DNA of 43,884 nt, from contig CAMCKZ010000018.1 of assembly GCA_945875545.1 (NCBI GenBank), forward strand, positions 1-43,884, given 5' to 3'. Under the pieces are notes generated by a model that was not told where the DNA came from, made no database searches, and saw nothing but the letters and a program-made list of their open reading frames with translations. Source of the DNA: Polyangium aurulentum. Its GTDB lineage: Bacteria > Myxococcota_A > Polyangia > Polyangiales > Polyangiaceae. Made by a program: the position numbers and the translations under genes. Below are positions 22,975 to 35,657 of this stretch, piece by piece; the stretch's first letter is position 1, and every line of letters starts with the position of its first letter.

Positions 22975-23520
22975 ATGGGTCCGAGACACCGGCACGATCC
23001 GTTGAAAAACCTCGTGGGGTTTTGCGTGGGAGACGTTAACTACGCGGTTCCCATTGCGTGCGTCAAAGAGGTCTCGAATCCCTTGGACGTCGTGGCACTT
23101 CCCCATGCGCCGCCCGGCATCTGCGGGGTTTCTGATTACCGCGGTCATGTCGTTCCTCTGGTCGATTTGCGCCTCCGCTTTAACCTCGAACGGCAAGCCA
23201 CCACCAGACGCACAAAATGGGTGATTCTTGAGCTCGAAGGGCGCTTGTTGGCCCTCATCGTCGATCGGGTCTCAGAGGTTTTTGGCACGGGCGGTGCCGA
23301 GGTTCGTCCTTCCCCGTTTCTCGGGGGCGGCGAAGATGTCCGCGGAATCGCTGGGGTTACGAGCTTTAATGGGGAGCTTGTTTTTGTTCTTGACACGGGC
23401 AAACTTCGTGAACTGACCGACGCGGTCGCCCTGCCCCACGCCCTGCCCCACGCCCTGCCCCACGCAGTGCCCTCCAGCGGGGGCCGCGGAGGTCTGGTGG
23501 CAGCCAAGTTGTCCACGTGA
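22975..23520 (+). CDS. Second CheW-like coupling protein with repeat tail
   Basis: A 181-residue CheW-like protein (VGFCVGDVNYAVPIACVKEV, YRGHVVPLVDLRLRF, LALIVDRVSEVFG). I prefer the ATG at 22975 because GAAGGG at 22960-22965 sits at a proper distance; the ATG at 22966 is too close to that site. The C-terminus has three PHAL units from a 12-bp repeat and a Gly/Ser-rich tail, not part of the CheW fold. It may couple a different receptor set or join the array as an extra linker. The stop overlaps the GTG of the HEAT gene. The 214 bases between the two cheW genes contain no credible gene. Confidence 0.88.
   Translation: MGPRHRHDPLKNLVGFCVGDVNYAVPIACVKEVSNPLDVVALPHAPPGICGVSDYRGHVVPLVDLRLRFNLERQATTRRTKWVILELEGRLLALIVDRVSEVFGTGGAEVRPSPFLGGGEDVRGIAGVTSFNGELVFVLDTGKLRELTDAVALPHALPHALPHAVPSSGGRGGLVAAKLST
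23428..23463. repeat. 12-bp tandem repeat, three copies, coding
   Basis: Three exact copies of GCCCTGCCCCAC encode ALPH units in the C-terminal tail of the second CheW-like protein. Confidence 0.9.
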
Positions 23521-25580
23521 AAAACGCCTTCGCCGCCGTCGAATGGCTCTTGTGCCAAGAGGAGCCCGAGGCGCGCCGCACGGCCGCCCAACAGCTGGTC
23601 AAGCTGGAGGGGCGCGATGCCATTCCGTTCTTGCTCACGGCCCTCGGCGACACCGACTGGCGCGTGAGGCGCGAGGCCACGAGTTCCGCGCCTCTCATCG
23701 CGCCGCGAGCAGCGGTCATCGCGGCGCTCATTCCCTGCCTCTCGGAGGCCCAAAACATCGGCCTGCGCAACGCCGCCGTCGAGGCCTTGGTGGCCATCGG
23801 GGCCGAGGCCATCGGGCCCGTTCTCGGGGTACTCGCAGCCCTTTCAAGCGACGGAAAAAAGCTGGCCGTCGAAGTCCTCGCAGGCATCACCGACGAGCGC
23901 AGCGCATCGGCCCTTGAGGCCCTCCTCGAAACCGACGACGTGAACGTAGCCTGTGCCGCGGCCGAGGCCCTTGCGCAGGTCGCGAAACGCTCCGACGAGC
24001 TCCGTGCGAGCGCGGTTGCGGCCCTCGTGCGCAACATGGAAGGCGCCGACACCTACTTTTGCGTCGCGCTTTTGGAGGGCCTAAAATTTCTCGAGGCCGA
24101 GGTTCCTTGGGCGGTTTATGCAAAAATTTCAAAAAACCCCATGCTTCGTGGGTACGCGGTCTCGGCCGCGGCCCTAACGACCGACCCCTCCGCTCTCCAC
24201 CTGCTCGTCTCCACGATATCGCACAGCACCAAGACCCTCGTGCGCGAGGCAACGATCGTCCTCGGCGAAAAAGTGTTCGCGGGGGTTGCAGACCAGGGCC
24301 TTCTGCGCATCGTTCGCGACGCCTTCGCGCTGAACCCGGGGGTTGACGCGCCCATTCTGTTTCTCGCGCGCACCCACGACGACCTGCCTGCGCGCGCCGG
24401 CGCCACGGTGCTTCTTGGCCTCCTCGGCGACCCGGCGACGATCCCCACGATCATCGGTGCCCTGAGTGAAGACGGGCTCACAGAGCGCGCCGAGCGGGCT
24501 CTAAAACTGGCCGGGGGCGATGCCGTCGGTCCGCTGTTGGCCCTGGCGCGGTCACGTGAACCAAGCGCGCGCGCAAACGCCATTTCCATGATGCCCGTGA
24601 TCGTGCATTCTGCAAGTGACGAGGTCCGCAAGACGCTTCACGGTGCCCTTCGCGACGAATCCAACGAAGTCAAAGCCTCGGCCCTTCGTGTTCTCGCGAC
24701 CACCGGCGACGCCGACGACATGGAGCGCATCATGCCCATGGTGAACGACCGCGACCCGCGCGTTTCTGCCGCCGCCGCCGCCGCCCTTGCGCCCCTCGCC
24801 CGCCGCTACGAAGATCGCGCCCTCGAGCTCGTAAGCGACGTCGACGTGACGGGCCATCTGGCTTCCGCTGCCTGCGTTGTTTTGGAGGCCATCGCCGGCC
24901 GTGCGCCGCTCACGAGCGCGAGTCTTCGTTTCCTCGAGCAGGCGATGCTCAGCACGAGTGCACACGTGCGTCGTCTCGCCGTCGACGCCCTCGCCGTCAA
25001 CCCCACAGACGAGGTCATCGAGGTGCTCCAACTTGGCTTGGCCGACGAAGAACGCGACGTGCAGATTGCATCGATGCGTGCCCTCGGAAGGGCCGGCCGG
25101 TCGCAGCCCATCGAGATCTTGATTCTTGGGGCTCGAGACGGCGAGCTTGTGGCGAGTGGGCTCTCGGCCCTTGCAGAATGCAGCGAAGCCATCGCCATCC
25201 AACTCGCCGGAAAACTCATCGCCTCCCGAGATGCGCTCGTCGCGTGTGCTGCCGTCGATACCCTCGGTCGCTACACCGATGCAGCCGCCCGGGCGCTGCT
25301 CTTCAAAGCCCTCGGCCACCCCGACGGCGACGTCGTGCGGCTTGCTCTCACCGAGATCGTGGCCCCGGAATCCGATTCAGAACGAGGCCTCGTCGCCGAC
25401 TGCCTATCCAGCTCAAACCCTGGAATTCGCCGCGCCGCGATTGATGCCTTGGGCAAAGATCCGCATCGCGAGTCGCGGCGAATTGTGCGCCGTCGCCTCG
25501 ACGATGAATCCGATCCACGGGTCATTGAAATGATTTTGTCGGTGCTGGCGTCTGGGGTCAGGGCACCAGGCGGTCTGTGA
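23517..25580 (+). CDS. HEAT-repeat protein of the chemosensory operon
   Basis: A 687-residue protein built almost wholly of HEAT/PBS-lyase-type repeats of about 30 residues (for example PFLLTALGDTDWRVRREA, ALEALLETDDVNVACAAAEA, VRRLAVDALAVNPTDEVIEV). It forms an alpha-solenoid for protein binding and has no catalytic motif that I can see. The GTG start overlaps the CheW stop (GTGA), and its own stop overlaps the cheR start, so it is translated as an integral part of the operon. HEAT-repeat proteins are known companions of some myxobacterial chemosensory systems; here it could be the output or scaffold in place of flagellar control (inference). Confidence 0.9.
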   Translation: MKNAFAAVEWLLCQEEPEARRTAAQQLVKLEGRDAIPFLLTALGDTDWRVRREATSSAPLIAPRAAVIAALIPCLSEAQNIGLRNAAVEALVAIGAEAIGPVLGVLAALSSDGKKLAVEVLAGITDERSASALEALLETDDVNVACAAAEALAQVAKRSDELRASAVAALVRNMEGADTYFCVALLEGLKFLEAEVPWAVYAKISKNPMLRGYAVSAAALTTDPSALHLLVSTISHSTKTLVREATIVLGEKVFAGVADQGLLRIVRDAFALNPGVDAPILFLARTHDDLPARAGATVLLGLLGDPATIPTIIGALSEDGLTERAERALKLAGGDAVGPLLALARSREPSARANAISMMPVIVHSASDEVRKTLHGALRDESNEVKASALRVLATTGDADDMERIMPMVNDRDPRVSAAAAAALAPLARRYEDRALELVSDVDVTGHLASAACVVLEAIAGRAPLTSASLRFLEQAMLSTSAHVRRLAVDALAVNPTDEVIEVLQLGLADEERDVQIASMRALGRAGRSQPIEILILGARDGELVASGLSALAECSEAIAIQLAGKLIASRDALVACAAVDTLGRYTDAAARALLFKALGHPDGDVVRLALTEIVAPESDSERGLVADCLSSSNPGIRRAAIDALGKDPHRESRRIVRRRLDDESDPRVIEMILSVLASGVRAPGGL

Positions 25581-26473
25581 CGATGGCGCTGCCCCCAGGT
25601 CCCGACGGATTGGTGCTTCGGAAGGCGGAATACGAGGCCTTTAAGTCGCTTTTTTCGGAACGGCTTGGCCTCGCGTTAGCCTCCGATACGCCCGCATCCC
25701 TCGCGCGCCGACTTCAAGATCGCGTGATTTGCCACGGCCATAAAACGTTTGCAGAATACATGCAGCTCCTTCGCTTTTCGGGGCACGCCCTCGACGAGTG
25801 GGAGGAGTTGCAAGACATTCTCACGGTTCACGAGACCTACTTCTGGCGCGATGAGGCGCAGTTGCGCTGCTTTCGCACCGAGATTCTTCCGATGCTTGCG
25901 GAGCAGGGACGAGAACGTCGTCGCCTGTCGATCTGGAGCGCCGGCTGTTCAACGGGCGAAGAAGTTTATACGCTCGCGATTTTGGTTCACGAGTCGGGTC
26001 TGTTTCGCGATTGGTTTGTGCGCATTTACGGCAGCGACGTGTCGAAGCGCTGCGTGTCGGCGGCACGCCTTGGGGTCTACGGCCAGTCCTCATTTCGAGC
26101 GATGCCCTCCGACATGCGCAAGCAGTACTTCCATGATCGTCCCGACGGCGCCCACGTAGCGGACCGCATTCGGCGTTACTGCGCCTTCGGGCAAGTCAAC
26201 TTGGCGCACCCCGATAAAGTTCGCCTCGTGGGCGCCCAAGACGCCATCGTGTGCCGAAATGTTCTCATCTACTTCGACCCCGCCACCCGTCGAGGCGTGA
26301 CCGAGAGCTTCGTCGAGCGCTTGAACACCGGCGGAATACTGGTCCTCGGGCACTCGGAATCTCTCATCCATGTGTCGAATGCCCTTGAGCTGCTAGCGTT
26401 GAAGGGCGACCTTGCTTACCGCAAGCCTGTTGGCTCGTTCCGCAGTTCCCCAGAATTTCTGAAGCCCACGTGA
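25577..26473 (+). CDS. cheR: Chemoreceptor methyltransferase CheR
   Basis: CheR methylates glutamates of chemoreceptors with S-adenosylmethionine. The 298-residue product has the N-terminal helical domain (about 15-90), then VHETYFWRDEAQ, the SAM-binding loop IWSAGCSTGEEVYTLAI, and AIVCRNVLIYFDPATRR followed by GILVLGHSESL. Length is normal. The GTG at 25577 overlaps the previous stop (GTGA), the same arrangement as its neighbours; an ATG two codons later is the alternative. Its presence shows that the system adapts by methylation although no receptor gene is nearby. Confidence 0.95.
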   Translation: MTMALPPGPDGLVLRKAEYEAFKSLFSERLGLALASDTPASLARRLQDRVICHGHKTFAEYMQLLRFSGHALDEWEELQDILTVHETYFWRDEAQLRCFRTEILPMLAEQGRERRRLSIWSAGCSTGEEVYTLAILVHESGLFRDWFVRIYGSDVSKRCVSAARLGVYGQSSFRAMPSDMRKQYFHDRPDGAHVADRIRRYCAFGQVNLAHPDKVRLVGAQDAIVCRNVLIYFDPATRRGVTESFVERLNTGGILVLGHSESLIHVSNALELLALKGDLAYRKPVGSFRSSPEFLKPT

Positions 26474-27618
26474 CCGACGCCAAAGCCCCCACCAAACTTC
26501 TCGTCGTTGACGACTCCCCCTTCAACCGCCGGTTCATCGCCGATGGTTTTTCCGGTGTCCCGGAAGTGCAGGTGGTGGCGCGCGCAGCCGATGGTCAAGA
26601 GGCGCTCGATCTGACCTTCTTGCATCGCCCCGATGTGATCACGCTCGATCTCGAAATGCCACGCATGGATGGCTTTACGTTCTTGCGCATTTTGATGGCC
26701 CGCTTGCCCACGCCGGTCATCATTGTGTCGAGCTACTCGCAGCGCGAAAACGTCTTCAAGGCGCTTGAACTTGGTGCCGTCGACTTCGTCACCAAGCCCG
26801 ATTTTACGCAATTGCAAGACGCGCCAGAGGTCCGCGATTCGCTGATTCAAAAGGTCTTGGCCTTGCGTTCGCGCGCGTCCGGGCCGAGCCTTGCCGCGGG
26901 CGTGGCCGGCGCGCCAAGTAGTGCGGGCTACCTATCGGGGTCCGCGATGTCCGCGCGCATGGCGGTGGCACCTCCCTCGGGCCCGGGATTGGTCCCGGGG
27001 TCCGCGCCGGGCACCATGCCCGGGGCAGCCCTCGAAGACTACGTTGCCCCAAAAAAACTTGTGGTCATTGGGGCCTCCACGGGCGGGCCGAGCGCCCTCT
27101 TGACCCTATTCGGTGTGCTCACCACCGCGAGCCGAGCGGCCTTCGCGATCGCACAACACATGCCCGATAAATTCACGCGCACGTTCAGCGAGCGCCTCGA
27201 CAAACGGGGCCCCATTCGCGTGCGCGAAGCAAGCGGCGGAGAAACTCTCGGAGAGCATCAAGCCCTCGTGTGCCCCGGCAAACGCAACCTCGAACTGGTG
27301 CGCCAGGGCGGCATTCTTCGGTCGATCGTGAAGATGCCCGAGAGCGACGACCGCTATGTTCCCAGCGTCGACCGCCTCTTCAAATCGGCCGCGGCTTTCG
27401 CGGGTGCAGAGCTCATTGCGGTTGTCTTGACGGGCATGGGAGACGACGGCCTTGAGGGAGCGCGGGCCGTGAAAGCGGCGGGCGGTCTCGTGATCGCGGA
27501 GTCCCAAGAATCAGCGGTTGTTTTCGGCATGCCCGGGTGCGTCGTTCGCGAAGGCCTCGCCGATCACATTCTGCCTCTGAAGAACATCGGGCCATTTCTC
27601 ATCAACGCGACCAAGTAG
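26470..27618 (+). CDS. cheB: Chemoreceptor methylesterase CheB
   Basis: CheB removes the methyl groups added by CheR when phosphorylated by CheA. The 382-residue protein has a receiver (1-125; Asp14-Asp15 and phosphoacceptor Asp60 in VITLDLEMPRMDG), a long low-complexity linker of Ser/Gly/Pro/Ala (about 135-190) and the methylesterase domain. The catalytic Ser is in VIGASTGGPSALL, the His in IAQHMPDKF and the Asp in VVLTGMGDDG. The GTG start overlaps the cheR stop (GTGA). It is the last gene of the operon; the convergent ArsA-like gene ends 26 bases further on. Confidence 0.95.
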   Translation: MTDAKAPTKLLVVDDSPFNRRFIADGFSGVPEVQVVARAADGQEALDLTFLHRPDVITLDLEMPRMDGFTFLRILMARLPTPVIIVSSYSQRENVFKALELGAVDFVTKPDFTQLQDAPEVRDSLIQKVLALRSRASGPSLAAGVAGAPSSAGYLSGSAMSARMAVAPPSGPGLVPGSAPGTMPGAALEDYVAPKKLVVIGASTGGPSALLTLFGVLTTASRAAFAIAQHMPDKFTRTFSERLDKRGPIRVREASGGETLGEHQALVCPGKRNLELVRQGGILRSIVKMPESDDRYVPSVDRLFKSAAAFAGAELIAVVLTGMGDDGLEGARAVKAAGGLVIAESQESAVVFGMPGCVVREGLADHILPLKNIGPFLINATK

Positions 27619-27644
27619 AATACACGCGTTCTTTCAGCGGTGAT

Positions 27645-28754
27645 TCACGGTGCAGCATGCGCCGAGTCCACCAAGAAAGAGCCCACGCGGTCCAGGTCTT
27701 CGAGCGTGTCAATGCCGCCCCCCATCGACGGAACCGCGGTCAGAAAAGCGGCCGGATCGAGCTGCTTACGCAGTTCTAAAAGCAGCGCCGTGTGATCATC
27801 GCGGCGAGTTTTTTCCCCGATGGCTGCCGCGGAAAGAGCCGACGCAAGCTCCGGGCCCAGCGCGAAGAGTTCCTCCGCCGTAGCAGCCCTCGGGCCCGGT
27901 TTCGTGTCGCATCGCATGACAACGAGGCCGCCGCAATGCATGTATTTTGCAGCCAGTTGGCGCTCGAAAAATCGTGCCTCGTCGATGGCCGATGGCGCGG
28001 GTGCGGTGACGAGGACAAAGCTCACTTTCGCGCGGTCCGAGAGCAGCGCTTCGAGGCGTGCCGTGTGGGTTCCGCACGCGCGCAGGACCCCGGCGAAGGC
28101 GCCAAAAAACTGTTGCAATTCAAGGTGTTCGGCTTCTCCAAGAGCCGCCCCAAGGACCGACCGAAGGACGCGCGAGGCCCCGGCGCGGAGGGAACTGGAG
28201 GTGCCGTGAGGAGGCAAGAAAAGTTGAAAAATCTTGCTGTCCAGAAACGCGGCGAGGCGGCGAGGGCCATCGAGGACCTCGAGGGCGTGGCGCGACGGGG
28301 GCGTGTCCAGCACGATGAGGTCGTAGCGATTGCTGGCAACGAAATCGTCGAGGGCTTCGAGCGCCGTGTACTCGACCATGCCCGCCGTCATCGTCGCTAG
28401 CTCCCGGTAGACGCGGTTGTCGAAAAGCGCCCGCTGCGCTTTCGCGTCAGGAACTATTTGCCTGATGACCCGTTCCGCAACCGCGCGCGGGTCCAGCAGC
28501 CACACGTCGAGGGGCACGTCTTTTCCCGCGAGCGCGCGAAGACCGAGCGGCACGACGGGCGCGGCGCTTTCCATCGACACGCCGAGGGCCTGGGCCAGCC
28601 TTTTCGACGGGTCAATCGTCAGCGCGAGGGTTCGGCGCCCTTCTTTGGCCGCGCGCAGGGCCAATGCCGCCGCGGTGGTTGTCTTGCCAACGCCGCCCCC
28701 GCCGCAGCTCACGATCACGCGCTGGGAATACATGAGGTCTGCAAGGGTTTTCAC
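27645..28754 (-). CDS. ArsA/Get3-family ATPase, lacking the signature lysine
   Basis: A 369-residue P-loop ATPase of the ArsA/GET3 type. The P-loop reads SCGGGGVGKTTTAAA (about 17-31): the Walker lysine (Lys24) is present, but the signature lysine of the family motif GKGGVGKT is replaced by Gly. Other motifs are normal: switch I LTIDPSKRL, and YDLIVLDTPPSRHALEVLDGP. Helical regions with many Leu and Phe residues (AAFLDSKIFQLFLPP) follow. Family members use ATP to load anions or tail-anchored membrane proteins; the role here is not known. GAGGAG upstream and the GTGA overlap with the preceding gene fix the GTG at 28754. Confidence 0.88.
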   Translation of the reverse strand: MKTLADLMYSQRVIVSCGGGGVGKTTTAAALALRAAKEGRRTLALTIDPSKRLAQALGVSMESAAPVVPLGLRALAGKDVPLDVWLLDPRAVAERVIRQIVPDAKAQRALFDNRVYRELATMTAGMVEYTALEALDDFVASNRYDLIVLDTPPSRHALEVLDGPRRLAAFLDSKIFQLFLPPHGTSSSLRAGASRVLRSVLGAALGEAEHLELQQFFGAFAGVLRACGTHTARLEALLSDRAKVSFVLVTAPAPSAIDEARFFERQLAAKYMHCGGLVVMRCDTKPGPRAATAEELFALGPELASALSAAAIGEKTRRDDHTALLLELRKQLDPAAFLTAVPSMGGGIDTLEDLDRVGSFLVDSAHAAP

Positions 28755-29710
28755 GCGCGCTCCTCGAAGCAAAGTGCCATGGCCTCGCGGACGGCGGCCA
28801 CCGCATCGAGCCCGCCGTGCAAAGCTTCGGGCGCGCGCATCACGGGAACGGGCGAGGCCATGGCGATGAGTTTTGCCACGCGTTCGTCCGCCACAACTTG
28901 CTCAAGAAGCGTGCGTTTTCCCAGGACCTCGGCGCTGCCAAAAACGGCCGCGAGACTTTCGGCGACCCCCAAAATCGGAGGTACACACGGCGAGCGGTTG
29001 ACCAAAAATCCCGCGACGGGAACGAGCGCGCGGCGGAGCGCCGTCGCAAGATCGGTGGCCTCACGGAGGGCCAGTGGTTCGGGAATCGTGACCACGAGCG
29101 CCCCGGTTGTTGCCGCGTCGTGAAGGAGCGCTTGCCCACGCCGCAGACGGTCCGCGATCGGGCCGCGTGGTGCGAGCCGCAAGACGGTGTTCGGCAGGTC
29201 GGCGAGCGCCATCGCGTGCCCGGTGGCGGGCAGATCGAGCACGACGCGATCGTAGCTAAATCCCTCACCCGATCGCATTTCCACCAGGGTCAAAAAGTGC
29301 TGCATGACGCCCAATTCGTCGAGGGCGGGGGCCGCGTCGAGGAGTCTCGCCAGCGAACGCGAGTGCATCGCCGCACGCACGAGGGGTCCCACCGGCACGA
29401 CCTCGCGCAAGAAGAGTTCTTGCCCCTTTCGCGGCTCCAGGCGGGCGCAAGACAGCGTTCCCGTGACCGCCTGCGGGTGGCAACCCGGCGCGACGCCCAA
29501 GAGGGCTTGGAAGGCGCTGGGGCCCGGAGCGCCGAGACCGGCTTCGAGAAGCAAGGTTCGCTCACCGCGGGCGGCAAACAATTGAGCGACGGCCAAAGCC
29601 GTGGTCGATCGTCCAACGCCACCTTTGCCCGCAATTAGCCAGATGCGGCGATCGAAGTCGGGGATGAGAGGCGATAAAGGCACACGATTCCGGTCTGGTG
29701 GCGTGGGCAC
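28751..29710 (-). CDS. ArsA/Get3-family ATPase, lacking the Walker lysine
   Basis: A paralogue of the next gene, about 319 residues from the GTG at 29710 (a GTG at 29683 is nearly as good; both precede the P-loop). The P-loop reads LIAGKGGVGRSTTA. The signature lysine (Lys29) is present, but the Walker lysine is Arg34. YDRVVLDLPATGHAMALADLP matches the switch II region. Its stop overlaps the GTG of the partner gene, so the two are probably made in equal amounts and assemble together. It is divergent from a receiver gene at 29774. Natural substrate is unknown; tail-anchored protein targeting is only one family precedent. Confidence 0.85.
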   Translation of the reverse strand: MPTPPDRNRVPLSPLIPDFDRRIWLIAGKGGVGRSTTALAVAQLFAARGERTLLLEAGLGAPGPSAFQALLGVAPGCHPQAVTGTLSCARLEPRKGQELFLREVVPVGPLVRAAMHSRSLARLLDAAPALDELGVMQHFLTLVEMRSGEGFSYDRVVLDLPATGHAMALADLPNTVLRLAPRGPIADRLRRGQALLHDAATTGALVVTIPEPLALREATDLATALRRALVPVAGFLVNRSPCVPPILGVAESLAAVFGSAEVLGKRTLLEQVVADERVAKLIAMASPVPVMRAPEALHGGLDAVAAVREAMALCFEERA

Positions 29711-29737
29711 CGAACGGCCGACGCGCGATGTCTTCTC

Positions 29738-29766
29738 TTCACTAAACGCCAAGCGCAGCGTATTGT
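29738..29766 (+). promoter_or_regulatory. Possible promoter giving a near-leaderless mRNA
   Basis: TTCACT (29738-29743) and TATTGT (29761-29766) are 17 bases apart. Transcription would start about at the ATG at 29774, and there is no ribosome binding site in front of that ATG. Each box matches the sigma-70 consensus at only four of six positions. Confidence 0.35.
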
Positions 29767-29773
29767 AACGACA

Positions 29774-30169
29774 ATGAGTTACCGCGTTCTTGTTGCCGAC
29801 GACAGCTCCGTAGTTCGGGCGCTCTACGTCGCGTGCTTGGAGCGCGCGGGCTATGAGGTTGTTCATTGCGGAAATGGCCGCGAAGCCCTGGCCATGGTTT
29901 GCGACTACATGCCCGATGCGGTCCTCTCAGACATCAGCATGCCGGAACTCGACGGCGTGCAGCTCATCGAAGAAATTCGCGCCCTCGACGACGACATGCT
30001 CGCGGCCATTCCCGTGGTCCTCATTACCGCGTGGGATGACGAAGACGAGCGCCTGCGGGCCAACCGCGTGGGTGCCGCAAAAATTTTGCTCAAGCCCGTC
30101 GATGCGCGCGACCTGCGCGATGCCATCGAAGAGGCCATCAACACGGCCCAAACAGCGGTCCACGTTTAG
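29774..30169 (+). CDS. Single-domain response regulator
   Basis: A 131-residue receiver: acidic pair in VLVADDSS (Asp9-Asp10), phosphoacceptor Asp53 in AVLSDISMPELDG, Thr in LITAW and Lys in LLKPVDARDL. There is no output domain and no kinase gene adjacent, so it acts through protein contacts. It is about 40 percent similar by eye to the receiver of the chemosensory operon and could be a second target of that CheA or of the kinases at 12.6-15.9 kb (inference). Confidence 0.9.
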   Translation: MSYRVLVADDSSVVRALYVACLERAGYEVVHCGNGREALAMVCDYMPDAVLSDISMPELDGVQLIEEIRALDDDMLAAIPVVLITAWDDEDERLRANRVGAAKILLKPVDARDLRDAIEEAINTAQTAVHV

Positions 30170-30211
30170 TTGCCGCGCGGCGGGGCCCAAGCGACTTTTG
30201 TCGGGGCTTTT

Positions 30212-31093
30212 ATGTGGTGTTTCTCAGGGTTTGCGCTGCTCGGCGTGTCGTCGACCGCCCACGCGGCCTCCGTTGGATTTCGGCCCATCGCCAAGGGAGA
30301 CCGCTGGCCGCGCGTGGAGCTGAAACGCGAAATTGGAGACAAGCCGGGGCCGATGACGGCGCACATTTTTCTGAAGCAGGTCACGAACCCATTCGTCAAG
30401 TTTGGGCCGTACTTGAACGAAAAAGAGGTCGGCGTGCTCGTGTTCAAGGGCCGCGGCCCTGCGGCGGTTCAACCCCTTGATGGAGCCGTGACCGTGCCCT
30501 CATCGGGACTCCTCGCTGGGCGTTACGAACTCCGTGTTCGCGTCGATACGCAAGACGGAACGATGGCGGCAGCGGCCGTCGCGACGCTCGACGAAACGCG
30601 CATCGCTCTCATTTCCGGGGCCTCGTCTTTGGGCGTTCGCACGCGCGCGTCCGAGGGTGCCCGGTCCGACGAAACCTCCGCCGCCGCGAGCCCCAACGCG
30701 AACCCCGATCCGAAACTTGTGCACCTCGACGCACGCGAAATGGCGGCCCTGCCGACGGACGAAGCGCGGCGCGCGGCCCAGGTTTTTGCCTTTGTTCTCA
30801 CCACGCGCGACGCCGAATCTTTTCGGCAACTGGTCGCCCAAGACGGCCTGCAAACCGACAAGGGCCGACTCTCGCACACCGAACTCGGCAAGCAGGTGCC
30901 AAAGGGTCTCGATCCCTTTCTTGGGCCGCCCCCGCGCGCTCCGTGGCACGTGGTGTTTGCCCGCGACACGCCGAATCGTTTCTCCATGAAGCCATCGAAA
31001 ACAGGAGACGATGAAGTGTCGTTTCGCAAAGGTTCGGACAACCGATGGCGCATCGAACAAGTCAGTCGAAAAAAGAGCACGCCGGAGCAATAG
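30212..31093 (+). CDS. Exported protein of unknown function
   Basis: A 293-residue protein. I choose the ATG at 30212, which starts a signal peptide (MWCFSGFALLGVSSTAHAAS, cleavage after AHA); a TTG at 30170 directly after the previous stop is possible. The mature N-terminal half (SVGFRPIAKGDRWPRVELKR, then YLNEKEVGVLVFKGRG and LAGRYELRVRVDTQDG) looks like a beta-sandwich. It is followed by an Ala/Ser-rich linker near 160-185 and a C-terminal domain containing DNRWRIEQV. I recognise no family or catalytic motif. It lies between a receiver and an M3 peptidase, 9 bases before the latter, so it is probably in one transcript with it. Confidence 0.7.
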   Translation: MWCFSGFALLGVSSTAHAASVGFRPIAKGDRWPRVELKREIGDKPGPMTAHIFLKQVTNPFVKFGPYLNEKEVGVLVFKGRGPAAVQPLDGAVTVPSSGLLAGRYELRVRVDTQDGTMAAAAVATLDETRIALISGASSLGVRTRASEGARSDETSAAASPNANPDPKLVHLDAREMAALPTDEARRAAQVFAFVLTTRDAESFRQLVAQDGLQTDKGRLSHTELGKQVPKGLDPFLGPPPRAPWHVVFARDTPNRFSMKPSKTGDDEVSFRKGSDNRWRIEQVSRKKSTPEQ

Positions 31094-35567: not shown

Positions 35568-35657
35568 GGAGAGATGTCCGAGTGGCTTAAGGAGCCTGAT
35601 TCGAAATCAGGTGTACTCTTACGGGTATCAGGGGTTCGAATCCCCTTCTCTCCGCCA
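35568..35657 (+). tRNA. tRNA-Ser (anticodon CGA)
   Basis: The 90-base sequence folds as a class II tRNA. The acceptor stem is GGAGAGA with TCTCTCC, followed by discriminator G and an encoded CCA. The anticodon stem is CCTGA/TCAGG around the loop TTCGAAA (anticodon CGA, reading UCG). A long variable arm of the serine type follows, and the T-arm is GGGG-TTCGAAT-CCCC. Confidence 0.97.

Follow-up and report, generated by a model that had tools for sequence, protein, structure and literature searches.

Get3/TRC40 is a homodimer with two equal sites, in which each chain carries both lysines of the P-loop motif GKGGxGK, the signature lysine and the Walker lysine, and the signature lysine crosses the dimer interface upon ATP binding (PMC10248533). 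Solved ArsA, a pseudodimer of the halves A1 and A2 that is linked to arsenite transport, also has both lysines in each half. A two-gene, split heterodimer of the Get3-like type is already known from Mycobacterium tuberculosis: BagA and BagB (Rv3679/Rv3680) are encoded by adjacent single-domain genes and were solved as an A-B complex (PDB 6bs3, 6bs4 and 6bs5), the entry 6bs3 being titled 'ADP-bound bacterial Get3-like A and B in Mycobacterium tuberculosis'. BagA (GKGGTGKST) has both lysines and a glutamate in Switch I. BagB (CGAGGVGKTT) is already without the signature lysine and keeps the Walker lysine and the Switch I aspartate. The mycobacterial pair was tied to tolerance of glycerol metabolism, nitric oxide, and citrate (PMC10597346) and to streptomycin survival (PMC12216072); these phenotypes name stress and no substrate. 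In the same NTPase class, SRP and its receptor hydrolyse GTP in one of their two faces (PMC9599734). Nostoc Get3d, finally, is a homodimer with a C-terminal alpha-crystallin domain and both signature lysines; it has an arginine at the Walker position and a glutamate in Switch I of both sites and retains ATPase activity (PMC10248533).

Here we compare with these systems a gene pair in a 43,884-nt stretch of Polyangium aurulentum DNA (contig CAMCKZ010000018.1), called the window below, to which all coordinates refer. Both genes lie on the minus strand. The upstream gene (28751..29710, GTG start, 319 aa) encodes an A-type (BagA-like) ArsA/Get3 subunit and the downstream gene (27645..28754, GTG start at 28754) a B-type (BagB-like) subunit. 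A longer version of A, from an ATG at 29866, would enter the divergent response-regulator gene, and the homology of A with its relatives starts near IPDFDRR. Read from the strand letters, the stop codon TGA of A (28753-28751) and the start codon GTG of B (28754-28752) have GTGA in common (28751..28754, minus strand; junction ...TTCGAGGAGCGCGCGTGAAAA...). The four-base overlap claimed in a first-pass annotation of this DNA holds if B starts at this GTG; from the earliest possible start in the ORF list, TTG 28772, the overlap would be longer. A Shine-Dalgarno-like GAGGAG was seen by eye at 28760..28765 of the same strand, 5 bases upstream of the B GTG.

The P-loop of A, GKGGVGRS (29606..29629, minus strand, within ...LIAGKGGVGRSTT...), keeps the signature lysine (codon 29624-29626) and has an arginine (CGA, 29609-29611) at the Walker position. 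That of B, GGGGVGKT (28680..28703, minus strand, within ...VSCGGGGVGKTT...), has a glycine (GGG, 28698-28700) at the signature position and keeps the Walker lysine (AAG, 28683-28685). With flanks, the motifs are GKGGVGRSTT in A and CGGGGVGKTT in B, as first annotated, and neither chain has the canonical Get3/ArsA motif with both lysines, the Walker lysine being absent from A and the signature lysine from B. Our sample contains one more genome of the genus (L010), and it has the same arginine and the same loss (GKGGVGRSTA and CGAGGVGKTT). Between this genome and the window, dN/dS (NG86) is about 0.23 for A and about 0.17 for B, values that suggest purifying selection on both, at a dS of 1.4-1.55, which is near saturation. 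Because the sister genome shares the motifs and selection appears to maintain both genes, a sequencing slip or chance can be excluded as their source.

The neighbours of the pair in the window, on the opposite strand, encode a HEAT-repeat protein, CheR, CheB, a response regulator and an M3 peptidase. Within 23517-31093 the pair opposes the run of HEAT-repeat, CheR, CheB and response-regulator genes; it converges on CheB and diverges from the response regulator. A tRNA-Ser (CGA) gene is located at 35568-35657. Elsewhere in the same genome there is a second B-type gene (L162, contig 3:28082-28951, P-loop CGAGGVGKTT) and a second A-type gene with both lysines (L163, contig 42:7757-8614, GKGGVGKTS), each unlinked; the unlinked A type recurs across many genomes of the family. 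Cross-pairing of the window pair with these unlinked A- and B-type proteins is possible.

Membership of both proteins in the ArsA-like ATPases, as first annotated, was confirmed with Pfam ArsA_ATPase (PF02374), for which B scored 78.2 bits and A 64.1 bits at a cut-off of 24.3. Among the NCBIfam models, B scored highest with BagB (205 bits, equivalog cut-off 521) and A with BagA (57.6 bits, cut-off 400); the two scores lie below cut-offs that are strict and tuned to mycobacterial proteins. By sequence, B matched Rv3680 (6bs3 chain B) with an E value of 1.2e-51, and A matched Rv3679 (6bs3 chain A) with about 8e-10, ranked after ArsA. AlphaFold2 models of the single chains had a mean pLDDT of 84.5 (A) and 80.8 (B). 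Searched against the PDB, the A model ranked 6bs3_A first (E 1.6e-15), with yeast Get3 near (4.7e-15), and the B model ranked 6bs3_B first (2.1e-19), well ahead of the next Get3 (5.5e-14). As the models match the two chains of 6bs3 first, we assigned A and B to the BagA/BagB kind. An alpha-crystallin domain as in Get3d was absent among the Pfam matches of A and B, and no CXXC motif was seen by eye in either protein. The first-pass annotation knew of no description of the split arrangement; the mycobacterial pair supplies one. The window pair resembles the mycobacterial one in gene arrangement, in the missing signature lysine and retained Walker lysine and Switch I aspartate of B, and in the signature lysine of A; it differs in A, which has arginine and glycine where BagA has the Walker lysine and the Switch I glutamate.

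To place this difference, adjacent pairs were surveyed. To the loci that B and an A profile retrieved from whole genomes of the window's phylum, we added those of two other sources: named genomes scanned for the motif, and genomes sampled around three loci, one actinobacterial, one spirochaetal and one of Bdellovibrio type. Whether a protein was A or B was decided by its profile score, without regard to the motif, and each distinct A contributed one adjacent pair. This yielded 181 distinct adjacent A-B pairs with A upstream, an order that the window pair fits. Searching with B, we recovered BagAB-type pairs from 129 of the 141 genomes sampled in the window's phylum; BagAB-type matches, some of them weak, turned up in 39 of 80 genomes sampled from an actinobacterial phylum and in 49 of 59 from that of Bdellovibrio. 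Few members of the sample around the spirochaetal locus (Leptospiraceae) had any match. One pair (L066) comes from a MAG recorded as Klebsiella pneumoniae but falls among deltaproteobacterial records, which probably reflects a mislabelled record or a mixed bin.

The two subunits were conserved very differently. The Walker lysine, the P-loop threonine, the Switch I aspartate and the Switch II aspartate of B were each present in 181/181 pairs, while the signature lysine of B was present in none (0/181), its position being occupied by Ala (67), Ser (67), Pro (24), Thr (17), Gly (5) or Cys (1). A had the signature lysine in all 178 readable pairs, a count biased upwards by the motif scan, which demanded GKGGVG[RK] or the Switch II motif; with the motif-scan loci removed it was 117/117, and the B signature lysine 0/120. 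The Walker position of A was lysine in 127 and arginine in 51 of the 178 readable pairs, four of the latter kind being from the Bdellovibrio phylum. The Switch I position of A, the alignment of which is uncertain, was acidic in 79/179. The P-loop Ser/Thr (178/178), the Switch II aspartate (180/180) and the base-contacting asparagine (179/180) were kept in A. The base-contacting asparagine of strand beta 7 was found in 176 of 178 readable B proteins; B of the window has a methionine there, and that of the sister genome L010 a threonine. Judged by this residue, the 'complete' site in the window's genus would be imperfect, and its base choice or affinity may differ.

These counts contradict the idea that the two subunits lose their lysines in a complementary way: B lacks the signature lysine throughout, yet A carries both lysines in 127/178 pairs. 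Such pairs, which the first-pass annotation had named as evidence against its proposal, include L022 and L151 of the window's own family, in which L152 keeps the Walker lysine too, as well as M. tuberculosis BagA. As the signature position of B is never lysine in the 181 pairs, it offers no variation with which the Walker lysine of A could co-vary. Being variable within the BagAB group, the Walker lysine of A is not taken here as a defining trait.

A tree built from 153 A proteins after masking of the Walker residue showed 7 changes between lysine and arginine at that position, at least 5 of them forced by well-supported branches; among the 178 adjacent pairs alone there were 4 such changes in A, at least 3 forced. 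No Walker Lys/Arg change occurred in B in any pair. A single myxobacterial group of 57 rows, 44 with Arg and 13 with Lys, holds most arginine-type A proteins, including that of the window. Others come from Leptospiraceae together with one Polyangiaceae record, from one actinobacterial record and from two other myxobacterial lineages. The Leptospiraceae and Polyangiaceae pairs (L057, L065 and L074) form a distinct divergent type that combines an arginine-type A with a B whose Switch II reads DTAPG. In the pair tree, the small clade around the window (L009, L010, L013 and L141) is separate from the main arginine clade of 43, a separation that is tentative as the trees are of a quick kind. With the direction from lysine to arginine assumed from the remaining P-loop NTPases, these trees suggest that the Walker lysine of A was replaced several separate times, in at least 3-5 changes. 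The loss of the signature lysine in B would then have come first, or is at least universal, and loss of the Walker lysine in A appears as an optional later step. Loss of an acidic Switch I residue in A was not linked to the Walker arginine after correction for relatedness: the raw counts of 10/53 vs 35/99 differed, but independent contrasts showed no link. The B signature position was Ala or Gly in 47/51 arginine-type and 24/127 lysine-type pairs, with 3-4 independent contrasts in the same direction that were not significant; otherwise, Ser, Pro and Thr were found at this position in the comparison.

Following the two-lysine logic that the pair shares with Get3 together with fold and family, both losses would strike the same site, that in A, which lacks its own Walker lysine and the trans lysine from B. 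The two sites foreseen in the first-pass annotation can thus be assigned: the composite one with both lysines (B Walker, A signature) lies in B, and the one with neither, with the Walker arginine and no signature lysine from B, lies in A. We consider it likely that the pair is an asymmetric heterodimeric ATPase of the BagAB kind with a working site in B and a degenerate site in A, in which turnover in B moves a client-handling dimer. B would provide the Walker lysine, the Switch I aspartate and the Switch II aspartate of the working site, and A would add the signature lysine in trans. The A site probably still binds nucleotide and Mg, since the P-loop Ser/Thr, the Switch II aspartate and the base-contacting asparagine are kept; hydrolysis there would be slow or absent, as B supplies no lysine, Switch I is mostly non-acidic and, in this pair, the Walker lysine is an arginine. 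Such a pattern of conservation would be the signature of a nucleotide-holding site freed from catalytic demands. By analogy with Get3, the single B site may, by turning over ATP, open and close the dimer so that a client is bound and released; ATP in B would be completed by the lysine of A, and the nucleotide in A may be a structural or regulatory ligand. Dimer formation in P. aurulentum, one-site hydrolysis and client handling are the steps that we infer here. The obligate, asymmetric heterodimer proposed before remains an inference, but one that has gained support from the conserved pattern and the invariant B site.

How far the A site is impaired depends on the arginine. Lys to Arg might be near-neutral in an active site, the arginine holding the beta-phosphate, so that both sites turn over and the asymmetry is that of any BagAB pair. 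Nostoc Get3d speaks for this, since with a Walker arginine in both sites it has a kcat of 0.28 per min vs 1.10 for Arabidopsis Get3d, and the Walker arginine is common to several cyanobacterial Get3d proteins (PMC10248533); moreover, the other binding residues of A are fully conserved. A dead site cannot be deduced from the Walker arginine alone, and to call the A site 'defective', as was done before, was right as to the absent lysines but too strong as to activity. However, Get3d has the signature lysine in both subunits and the A site receives none from B (0/181), Switch I of A is mostly non-acidic, and the change is restricted to A despite equal opportunity in B (51 vs 0). We therefore regard a near-neutral arginine as unlikely.

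The remaining explanations concern the partners. Two separate homodimers with different jobs, A2 with the signature lysine and a Walker arginine and B2 with the Walker lysine and no signature lysine, would agree with the homodimeric nature of Get3, and the unlinked A-type and B-type genes on contigs 42 and 3 mean that sets could mix. In a B2 dimer, however, neither site would receive a lysine from the partner chain; the relative of known structure is a complex of A with B, the genes overlap here and the adjacent A-B order is found in 181 distinct pairs, which together make separate homodimers quite improbable. A split form of ArsA, the energiser of an arsenite pump, is a still more improbable identity for the pair, to the point that we give it hardly any weight, although the Pfam family is the same, two ArsA-type halves occur together in both cases, and a single-domain ArsA pair with Acr3 was reported in Alkaliphilus metalliredigens (PMC2963123). 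The ArsA equivalog scores were 48 and 42 bits vs a cut-off of 650, none of the named genes that flank the pair in the window is ArsB, Acr3, ArsD or ArsR, and these were likewise missing from the 25 Pfam families listed, of 76, for neighbours of 16 related arginine-type pairs. Around these 16 pairs, blastp clusters of the nearest genes contained no common neighbour beyond the pair itself and antisense shadow ORFs, and each of the 25 Pfam families listed, of 76, occurred in one neighbour only. A literature search on myxobacterial A/B pairs found no report.

The asymmetric heterodimer with its working site in B thus accounts best for the pair. Whether it extends to a rule, with BagAB pairs as one-site ATPases in which the B site is invariant over several phyla while the A site holds nucleotide without hydrolysing it and could lose its Walker lysine more than once, so that A of these myxobacteria would be an activator donating a lysine to B, is a wider claim, towards which the balance tips only slightly. 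What the survey contributes is a split in conservation between B site and A site that spans several phyla, together with a Lys-to-Arg change that recurs on one side only. BagAB-type pairs are widespread, and the conservation split points to the site that should be the working one; the natural Lys-to-Arg variants are a ready test of this prediction. The SRP and SRP receptor GTPases, of a different family in the same NTPase class, use arginine fingers and GTP but likewise form face-to-face, unequal dimers. If the prediction is true, A/B pairs would represent, among Get3-type proteins, the ATPases with two unequal sites, and they could show which abilities remain to a half-active Get3.
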